Positions 23,588 through 37,529 of a DNA stretch of 49,222 nucleotides are shown here, one piece after another. The DNA comes from Pseudomonadota bacterium. GTDB taxonomy: Bacteria > Pseudomonadota > Alphaproteobacteria > Acetobacterales > Acetobacteraceae. The stretch is taken from positions 1 through 49,222 of the forward strand of contig JABBNW010000006.1 in assembly GCA_019352115.1 (NCBI GenBank). The letters run 5' to 3'. The notes under the pieces were generated by a model. It was not told the DNA's origin and did not search any database. It saw only the letters and a list, made by a program, of their open reading frames with translations. The position numbers and the translations under genes were made by a program. How positions within the stretch are numbered: the stretch's first letter is position 1; every line of letters starts with the position of its first letter.

Positions 23588-23689
23588 GGGGTGGGAGGCC
23601 GGACCGGCGACCCGGGCGGAAACTCGCTGCGGCTGCTTCCTTCCGGACCTGACCGGGTTGGCAAGGCGCCCGTCCGCGGCCGACCCCCC
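23588..23689 (-). ncRNA. ffs: Signal recognition particle RNA, small bacterial (4.5S) type
   Basis: The minus strand contains the highly conserved SRP RNA core GGTCAGGTCCGGAAGGAAGC, including the tetraloop and Ffh-binding internal-loop bases. Flanking GC-rich arms can pair (a G-run at the 5' side near 23689, and CCTCCCACCCC at the 3' side near 23588), giving an elongated hairpin of about 100 nt. Ends are estimated from the pairing. Location just upstream of dnaX is the familiar alphaproteobacterial context. The RNA guides ribosomes making membrane proteins via Ffh and FtsY. Confidence 0.93.
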
Positions 23690-35247: not shown

Positions 35248-36144
35248 ATGAGAAAGGGCGTTCGCGCGCGATTGGCAGGACACCTTGTCGTGTTCCTGGC
35301 GATAGCCCCGAGCTTGTCGCACGCCGCGCCGGCGCCTCCGGCGGCCACGTCCGGGGGGGCGCCGCCGGCGGCCGCTTCCGCAACGGGAACCGCCGCCGGC
35401 ACACCGGGGCAGGCTGCTCCCGTTGCCGCTCCCGTTGCCGCTCCCCCGGGCGCGCCGCCGCCCCACGCACCGCCGGCGCCGTCCGGTGCGGCGGTCGTTC
35501 ACCCGCGCGTGCGCCGTGTGCCGCCCAACGAAATGATTGCCGTGCTCGGGCAGCCGGTGACGGGGCCGGATGGCAAGCAGATCGGTCGCCTGACCGACGT
35601 GCTCGTCAATGCGGCCGGCGTCCCGGAGGCGGCGGTGATCGACTTCGGGGGCTTCATGGGCGTTGGCAGCCGCAATGTCGCCGTGCACTGGAGCACCTTG
35701 CGGTTCCATCCGGGCGCGGGAGGGAACCACATCGCCATCACGTTGACGCCGGCCGAAATCGGTGCGGCGCCGCAATACAAAGGGACGCAGCGTCCGGCCC
35801 CGGTCGTGGTGGCGCACGCCCACCCGGCAGGAGCAACCTCGAACGCGCTCCCGGGGACGGGCGCGGGGCCAGGCCCTGGTACGGCATCCGAGCCGCCGCA
35901 CGCCGCTGCCGTCCAGCCAACACCGTCCCTCCCAGCCGTTCGCCCGCACGAACCCGTGTCAAACCCGACGGGCACGATCGCCGCTCCCATCCCGTTCGAC
36001 GCCCCCGCGACTACCCTCTCCACGAACCCTCTGTCGACGTCTTCCGATGCGCTTCCCGTCGCCCCCTTCGCCATCCCGCCGGCCGCTCCCTTGGCCGTGT
36101 CTCCGCTCGCTCCCCCGTCGGGCGGTACGGCCGCACCCCGCTAG
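35248..36144 (+). CDS. Secreted PRC-barrel domain protein with low-complexity flanks
   Basis: A 298-residue protein with a signal peptide (residues 1-27, ending SLSHAAPA). A Pro/Ala-rich linker covers about residues 28-85. A PRC-barrel-like domain runs from about residue 92 to 170 (MIAVLGQPVTGPDGKQIGRL, then VPEAAVIDFGGFMGVGSRNV). A further long Pro/Thr/Ala-rich tail follows. PRC barrels bind other macromolecules; here the protein is likely periplasmic or cell-surface. The function is unknown. The stop TAG (36142-36144) lies inside a MITE-like element, so the original C-terminus may have been different. Confidence 0.75.
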   Translation: MRKGVRARLAGHLVVFLAIAPSLSHAAPAPPAATSGGAPPAAASATGTAAGTPGQAAPVAAPVAAPPGAPPPHAPPAPSGAAVVHPRVRRVPPNEMIAVLGQPVTGPDGKQIGRLTDVLVNAAGVPEAAVIDFGGFMGVGSRNVAVHWSTLRFHPGAGGNHIAITLTPAEIGAAPQYKGTQRPAPVVVAHAHPAGATSNALPGTGAGPGPGTASEPPHAAAVQPTPSLPAVRPHEPVSNPTGTIAAPIPFDAPATTLSTNPLSTSSDALPVAPFAIPPAAPLAVSPLAPPSGGTAAPR

Positions 36145-36251
36145 TGTCCCGACACGCAAACGGCGTCATCATGCGTCGGGACACCAGCTCTTTGTTTTCA
36201 GTGGCCTGCTGGTCCCTGAAATGGGAAGGCATTTCAGGGGCAGGACACTAG
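36141..36251. mobile_element. MITE-like element with TA flanks and two hairpins (element B)
   Basis: A 111-bp element with ends CTAGTGTCC (36141-36149) and the complementary GGACACTAG (36243-36251), i.e. GTGTCC ends flanked by TA on both sides, as in IS630/Tc1-type insertions. Two internal stems are seen: GTGTCCCGAC with TGCGTCGGGACAC (36144-36184), and CCCTGAAATG with CATTTCAGGG (36214-36239, 6-nt loop). There is no coding capacity. It supplies the TAG stop of the PRC-barrel gene, and its right end places AGGA 9 bp before the MFS start. Confidence 0.7.
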
Positions 36252-36254
36252 CCG

Positions 36255-37529
36255 ATGCCGGATCTCCGCCCACCGGGTCAGGACCGCGGCAAGCGGGCCC
36301 TCGATCTGCTGAATTTCTTTCTCGCCAATGTACAGACCGGCTTCGGGCCCTTCGTCGCCGTCTATCTGACCGCGCACAAATGGACCGAAGGCGATATCGG
36401 CCTCATGCTCAGCGTCGGCACCATCGTCGGGGTGGCGAGCCAGCTGCCGGCGGGCGCGCTGGTGGATGCCACGACAGCGAAGCGCGCAGCGACGGCGACA
36501 GCGATCGGCGGCATCATGGCGGCGGCGCTGCTGCTCGCGCTTTGGCCCGTCGCGCTAGGGGTCATGGCCGCCGAAGTGCTCCACGGGATCGCGAGCAGCG
36601 TGCTGACCCCCGCCATCGCCGCCCTCAGTCTTCGCCTCGTCGGCCGCGCAGCGCTGGGGGAGCGGCTGGGACGCAACGCGGCCTTCGGCGCCGTGGGCAA
36701 CGGTCTTGCGGCGGCGGCGATGGGCGCGGCCGGCAGCACGCTCGGCACCCGCGCGGTGTTCTGGCTCACCGCGGCGCTGGGCGTGCCGGCGCTGGCGGCG
36801 GTAGCGCTCCTCCCCCGCCAGGCGGTTCGCCGCGCAGACGCGCCGCCCGAGGCCACCGGGCCGGCAGCAGCCCCCGAGGCGCCGCGCGCAGCCGCGCCCT
36901 TCAGGACCAGCATCGTCGCTCTGCTGTCCGATCGACGGCTGCTCATATTCGCTGCCGCCCTCGTGCTGTTCTTCCTGGCCAATGCGGAGGTCCTGCCGCT
37001 GGCGGCGTCGTTGATGACCCGCCAGGCCGGCACGCGCGCCAGCCTCATCATTGCCGCCGCCATCGTCCTCCCCCAGGCAGTGGTGGCACTCACGTCCGGG
37101 TGGGTCGGGCGGGAGGCCGAGCGACGCGGCCGGCGCCCGCTTCTGGTGCTCGGCTGGACGATCCTGCCGCTGCCGGGTGTGCTGCTGGCCCTGCTGCCGA
37201 CGCCGGCGGTACTGCTGGCCGGCCAGGCGCTGGGCGGCGTCAGTGCGGCGGTGATCGGCGTCATGCTGCCGCTGACCGCTGCCGATCTCACACGCGAAAG
37301 CGGGCATTTCAACCTGTGCATCGGCCTGTTCGGCCTCTGCGCCGCCGGCGGAGCGACCCTCGGCACGGCTCTCGGCGGCGCGTTGGCGGACATGGCGGGC
37401 AACCGGGTGGCGTTCCTCTGCCTGGCTGCGATCGGGCTGGCCGGGGCGGCGCTGCTCGCGACGTTCATGCCCGAGACCCGGGCCGCAACGCCGGCGGGCC
37501 GCGTTGACCCTCGGGAAGCCCCAGAGTAA
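36255..37529 (+). CDS. MFS transporter
   Basis: A 424-residue membrane protein with about twelve hydrophobic segments in two halves separated by a hydrophilic loop at about 190-215 (Arg/Ala/Pro-rich). The segment LVDATTAKRAATATAIGG is the loop 2-3 motif region, and GREAERRGRRPLLVLG is its counterpart in the second half, both typical of the major facilitator superfamily. Substrate unknown. The ATG at 36255 comes 3 bp after a MITE-like element whose AGGA appears to be its ribosome-binding site. It ends 52 bp before sdhC. Confidence 0.85.
   Translation: MPDLRPPGQDRGKRALDLLNFFLANVQTGFGPFVAVYLTAHKWTEGDIGLMLSVGTIVGVASQLPAGALVDATTAKRAATATAIGGIMAAALLLALWPVALGVMAAEVLHGIASSVLTPAIAALSLRLVGRAALGERLGRNAAFGAVGNGLAAAAMGAAGSTLGTRAVFWLTAALGVPALAAVALLPRQAVRRADAPPEATGPAAAPEAPRAAAPFRTSIVALLSDRRLLIFAAALVLFFLANAEVLPLAASLMTRQAGTRASLIIAAAIVLPQAVVALTSGWVGREAERRGRRPLLVLGWTILPLPGVLLALLPTPAVLLAGQALGGVSAAVIGVMLPLTAADLTRESGHFNLCIGLFGLCAAGGATLGTALGGALADMAGNRVAFLCLAAIGLAGAALLATFMPETRAATPAGRVDPREAPE

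Follow-up and report, generated by a model that had tools for sequence, protein, structure and literature searches.

The locus considered here raises the question of what a short insertion does when it comes to lie between the stop codon of one gene and the start codon of the next. In the window (the whole 49,222-nt stretch of Acetobacteraceae DNA that was analyzed), a compact two-hairpin element separates the genes for a PRC-barrel protein and an MFS transporter, both of which have orthologs in related genomes (Table 1). The original prediction held that this element supplies the stop codon of the first gene and the ribosome-binding site of the second, thereby joining the two, and that its stems might also act as a partial terminator or RNA processing site.

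Table 1. Coordinates of the element, its parts and the flanking genes, numbered from the first nucleotide of the window.
Feature	Position	Strand	Remarks
PRC-barrel protein gene, upstream	35248–36144	+	Pfam PF05239; stop TAG at 36142–36144
Module B hairpin	36140–36188	+	Adjoins the PRC stop; approximate boundaries
Target TA duplicate, left	36142–36143		Completed by the first G of the element to give the PRC stop TAG
MITE proper, GTGTCC...GGACAC	36144–36248	+	105 bp; contains no ORF
Module A hairpin	36200–36249	+	Adjoins the MFS start; approximate boundaries
AGGA, possible Shine-Dalgarno sequence	36242–36245	+	9 nt 5' of the MFS ATG; predicted anti-SD pairing
Target TA duplicate, right	36249–36250		Inside CTAG 36248–36251
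MFS transporter gene, downstream	36255–37529	+	PF07690; ATG at 36255

The element is a bacterial MITE with IS630-type ends. CTAG is read directly at both of its borders (36141–36144 and 36248–36251), and its length is 105 bp without the target TAs, 109 bp with both, and 111 bp from CTAG to CTAG, the last being the size originally given for a TA-flanked, two-hairpin, MITE-like unit, a description that held up. The terminal inverted repeats, TAGTGTCC and GGACACTA, are imperfect over about 28 bp (71%). In the PRC-to-MFS direction module B, a hairpin that has TAGTGTCC at one edge and the complement at the other, comes before module A, which begins with another TAGTGTCC and is also found alone, in tandem or as a palindrome. 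Folded as RNA, the two hairpins have a predicted energy of −55.2 kcal/mol (z −4.26), and folded as DNA one of −34.9 (z −6.43); none of 200 shuffled sequences folded as stably. A search against Rfam gave nothing above the gathering score at the element; the only match in the window lies elsewhere (23591–23688, minus strand) and is an ordinary bacterial small SRP RNA (RF00169).

Tandem arrays of module A occur on contigs C39 (five units, period 59) and C199 (three units). The five units of the former (C39:762–1069), four of them nearly identical, repeat with a 59-bp period from within the stop codon of a 253-aa gene, suggesting amplification of individual modules through slippage or through insertion at the same place again and again. 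Perfect 51-bp palindromes (TAGTGTCCTGCCCCTGAAAT...ATTTCAGGGGCAGGACACTA) were also seen, both in the host genome (C234) and in the Acidiphilium sp. 37-60-79 MAG (L138–L202), and may represent minimal elements or have arisen from module A by recombination.

Whether the element created the PRC stop can be judged from relatives that lack it. In four such genomes, one of the same genus, the PRC gene stops 0–12 nt before the MFS start, and a fifth is similar. The same-genus junction (G004) reads GGC-TGA-GCG-ATG, with 77% identity over 57 aa at the start of the MFS protein, and those of other genera read CCG-TGA-ATG (G007), GGC-TGA-CGCGCC-ATG (G021) and AAC-TAG-(12 nt)-ATG (G008); at G019 the junction is GGAATAATCAATG, with a TAA just 5' of the start. 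Joining the flanks of the window copy gives CGC-TAG-CCG-ATG with the TAG in frame, so the PRC stop predates the insertion, and TAG was rebuilt because both ends of the element begin with G after the duplicated TA. That the element supplied the stop and fused or re-cut the two genes, as originally proposed, was therefore rejected as very improbable: the junction does contain a TAG whose G belongs to the element, but element-free relatives share both the stop position and the gene order, and the joined flanks already read TAG. The two genes were neighbors without it, and the stop and start context of G004, G007, G021 and G008 is the same in its absence, the outcome originally named as refuting the idea.

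The expectation of further copies in the genome was borne out, with 49 distinct full or partial copies in the host assembly (4.76 Mb in 385 contigs), several of which sit at contig ends; this number lies well outside what chance would produce. The element was present in all five other genomes examined for the genus, and other genera of the family gave only weak partial matches. Dissemination via plasmids or phages was rejected, as searches of plasmid and phage collections returned zero matches in either. When targets were reconstructed by joining flanks, CTAG was found at 20 of 30 copies in the host genome and 19 of 24 in relatives (39 of 54 both-ended targets), with TA as the duplication; the same preference, CTAG with duplication of TA, is reported for IS630 in the passages of PMC2170065 and PMC6811581 that cite Tenzen and Ohtsubo (1991).

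Contigs of the genomes were also scanned with a pattern fitting both element ends. Such ends turned up in other lineages. One instance is L165, an element of 1186 bp from a Planctomycetota MAG that carries an IS630 transposase (NF033545); its ends, TAGTGTCCCGACTCTGAAATG, show 3 differences in 21 positions to the A end and 2 in 20 to the B end. An IS630 in the same-genus genome G003 (L213), likewise inserted in CTAG, has more distant ends (TAGTGTTCTGAACC / TAGTGCTCTGACTC). By these sequence comparisons the IS630-type affiliation of the element is well supported, and we infer that it would have been mobilized in trans by an IS630 transposase. An autonomous parent in the same genome, usual for MITEs and not strictly required, was not found in the draft assembly: none of its 11 DDE_3 loci is bounded by element-like ends, and nothing matched the L165 transposase at E 1e-20. 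The IS630-type GTGTCC ends originally described are supported, with similar ends in L165 and L213; the host assembly itself yielded no transposase with such ends.

Two candidate parents in the host genome were rejected. At C273, two element copies flanking a DDE_3 gene proved to be separate insertions, one of them truncated, around a broken IS630, and the five-copy IS630 of the host has ends (TACTAATACCCC) unrelated to the element. An IS630 with ends TACTAATACCCCAACAATATAC is present in five near-identical copies (L079–L083, on C157, C186, C191, C219 and C309), each cut by a contig end, and is probably a recently active IS of this genome. Elements of ~164 bp in Pseudomonas (L140, L156, L169 and L206), with TAGTGTCCTGCCTCG and a matching inverted end, form a separate IS630-type MITE family with the same end motif.

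The window copy is one of many that lie in stop codons. For every copy the flanks were joined and genes were called with a codon model of our own, trained on 444 kb of the host genome. Of the 49 host copies, 25 (19 of the 30 both-ended ones) fall exactly on a stop codon that is in frame once the flanks are joined, and genus-wide this is so for 39 of 66 distinct both-ended copies, with four inside genes. With element copies masked, 100 of 4744 background TA sites (2.1%) lie in stops, vs. 15 stop, 30 intergenic and 18 genic positions among background CTAG sites. Insertions were biased toward non-genic over genic sites (p = 0.004), and for the residual excess of stops over intergenic sites the CTAG targets gave p = 0.074 and the GTAG targets p = 0.002. 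Most of the stop-codon frequency is accounted for by the CTAG preference together with loss of genic insertions; since stop vs. intergenic reached only p = 0.074 at CTAG, special recognition of stop codons is not needed, and the strong claim that they are recognized as such was rejected. Empty sites are known in relatives for other copies as well as for the window junction, and the empty alleles of four of these (L014, L016, L019 and L028) have stops at or near the same position. The pattern recurs among related elements in an Acidiphilium MAG, where 10 of 30 A ends come directly after an in-frame stop.

The two ends of the element differ in what they place before a downstream start codon. We defined a stop-start junction as a stop hit with a co-directional start within 15 nt. 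Of the 11 distinct copies at such junctions, 10 have the A end (...GGCAGGACACTA) toward the start and one has the B end (...GTCGGGACACTA) there (p = 0.012, for a test that covers 11 sites and was set after the bias had been partly noticed), vs. an A/B orientation of 11:17 at stop-only sites (Fisher p = 0.0046). Stop-start junctions make up 11 of 39 stop insertions (28%) vs. 16 of 81 TAG stops generally (20%), and are thus not avoided. In Acidiphilium the orientation bias did not recur, with no convincing starts at the 30 A ends. The predicted anti-SD pairing before the MFS ATG, for which a generic 16S tail sequence was used, is −7.3 kcal/mol with the element, −1.7 at the empty site and −4.0 with the element flipped; the first is a stronger pairing than in 65% of 306 host genes. 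In the predicted folds the AGGA is partly paired (0.28 unpaired here, 0.04–0.57 across 10 sites), and in a flipped element the GGGA would be fully paired in the B stem.

For the ribosome-binding site that the element was proposed to set in front of the MFS ATG, there is partial support at the level of inference, from the predicted pairing energy and from the orientation bias at other stop-start junctions. The Shine-Dalgarno function of AGGA is a suggestion from modeled pairing, and the bias would fit selection, its putative cause, retaining only copies oriented so that they can provide initiation. A purely neutral IS630-type MITE offers another account, which we hold to be a real though lesser possibility: the stop frequency would be a by-product of CTAG targeting in a GC-rich genome, and the AGGA an accident with no effect on MFS translation. 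It draws on the same p = 0.074 at CTAG, on the AGGA belonging to the conserved end of every copy, and on the 176 of 306 host genes in which an SD motif of such kind is absent, so that one is perhaps unneeded. It does not fit as well with the 10:1 orientation at stop-start junctions vs. 11:17 at stop-only sites, or with the predicted full pairing of the flipped end.

We consider it likely, overall, that an IS630-type MITE hit an existing PRC TAG, that the stop was rebuilt, and that the A-end AGGA probably substitutes for lost coupling. In the proposed sequence of events, a non-autonomous element would have inserted at the TA of a CTAG containing the in-frame PRC TAG, 3 nt before the MFS start, and the duplicated TA plus the G of the end would have restored TAG, leaving the PRC protein unchanged. 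The MFS start would thereby be shifted about 110 nt from the terminating ribosome, and the A end facing the ATG would bring AGGA to a usable distance, probably replacing the lost stop-start coupling. Across the family, the element would enter CTAG or GTAG targets, genic insertions would be lost, stop-codon insertions would be silent, and at stop-start junctions mainly copies with the A end at the start would survive. A further step, which we put forward only tentatively, is that the asymmetric ends, either of which rebuilds the stop while one carries a portable Shine-Dalgarno sequence, are in effect adapted to stop-start junctions. If so, an insertion could split tightly coupled operon genes with neither the upstream protein nor downstream translation being lost.

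Another reading gives the hairpins a role at the mRNA level: they might terminate transcription in part, mark a site of RNA processing or stabilize the transcript, and so set the PRC/MFS ratio. This we regard as unlikely. The predicted folds are very stable, and ERIC elements in Yersinia destabilize upstream transcripts in an orientation-dependent manner (reviewed in PMC2229807), but a search of the element for terminator-like or promoter-like sites found none, there being no GC stem with a U run immediately after it, and a terminator or promoter inside the element was rejected along with the proposed partial termination of the U-tract type. Also against this reading, the hairpin followed by a T-rich stretch (CTCTTTGTTTTC) occurs in the orientation found in operons, whereas the reverse orientation would be left if termination were selected against. 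The element sequence is conserved and the consensus fold was kept in 92% of cells, but both sides of a stem had changed in 25 cells vs. 10–18 in slid controls, an excess too modest to count as clear covariation, and RNA structure under selection was rejected. Terminator or RNA-processing roles for the element gained no support here.

Among known systems, RUP of Streptococcus pneumoniae is similar in length (about 107 bp), TA target, IS630-type ends, copy number (~110) and lack of an ORF, and is a MITE thought to be mobilized by IS630-Spn1; it differs in sequence, in being AT-rich and in having its parent IS in the same genome (PMC2229807, PMC3049150). Stop-codon rebuilding and an SD-bearing end are not described in those two papers. 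BOX of S. pneumoniae is likewise modular and encodes the stop of 36 genes with no evidence of truncation, but it is not of IS630 type, its A, B and C modules are unrelated, and no start-codon orientation rule is described (PMC3049150). In Coxiella burnetii, the MITEs QMITE1 and QMITE2 lie over the last 1–50 bp of functional genes, a 3'-end preference whose reason is unknown according to the authors; their sequences differ, and no IS630 link or SD role is given (PMC5896051). MITEPsy1 of Pseudomonas syringae is a 100-bp bacterial MITE with demonstrated transposition that inserts at CTAG or YTAA, but it is linked to the IS5-family ISPsy2, makes a 4-nt duplication and has unrelated ends (PMC3189936). 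IS630 of Shigella sonnei and other IS630-family elements share the duplication of TA within CTAG and have similar (L165) or distantly similar (L213) ends, but are autonomous and about 1.1–1.2 kb long with a transposase, whereas the MITE carries no gene. In the open-access literature, of which coverage was incomplete, we found no paper on stop rebuilding by IS630-type ends or on an SD-bearing end; the novelty of this combination is a lead rather than proof.

Bacterial MITEs have repeatedly been reported at the 3' ends of genes. The copies described here suggest a rule by which TA-targeting elements with G-first ends rebuild TAG when they insert inside TAG or TAA stops. Stop codons would then be harmless places to insert, especially where a GC-rich genome has few CTAG sites within genes. 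The orientation bias would add a route through operons by way of a carried ribosome-binding site. Together, the silent landing on stop codons and the end that can carry such a site suggest how elements of this kind may spread through operons at little cost.
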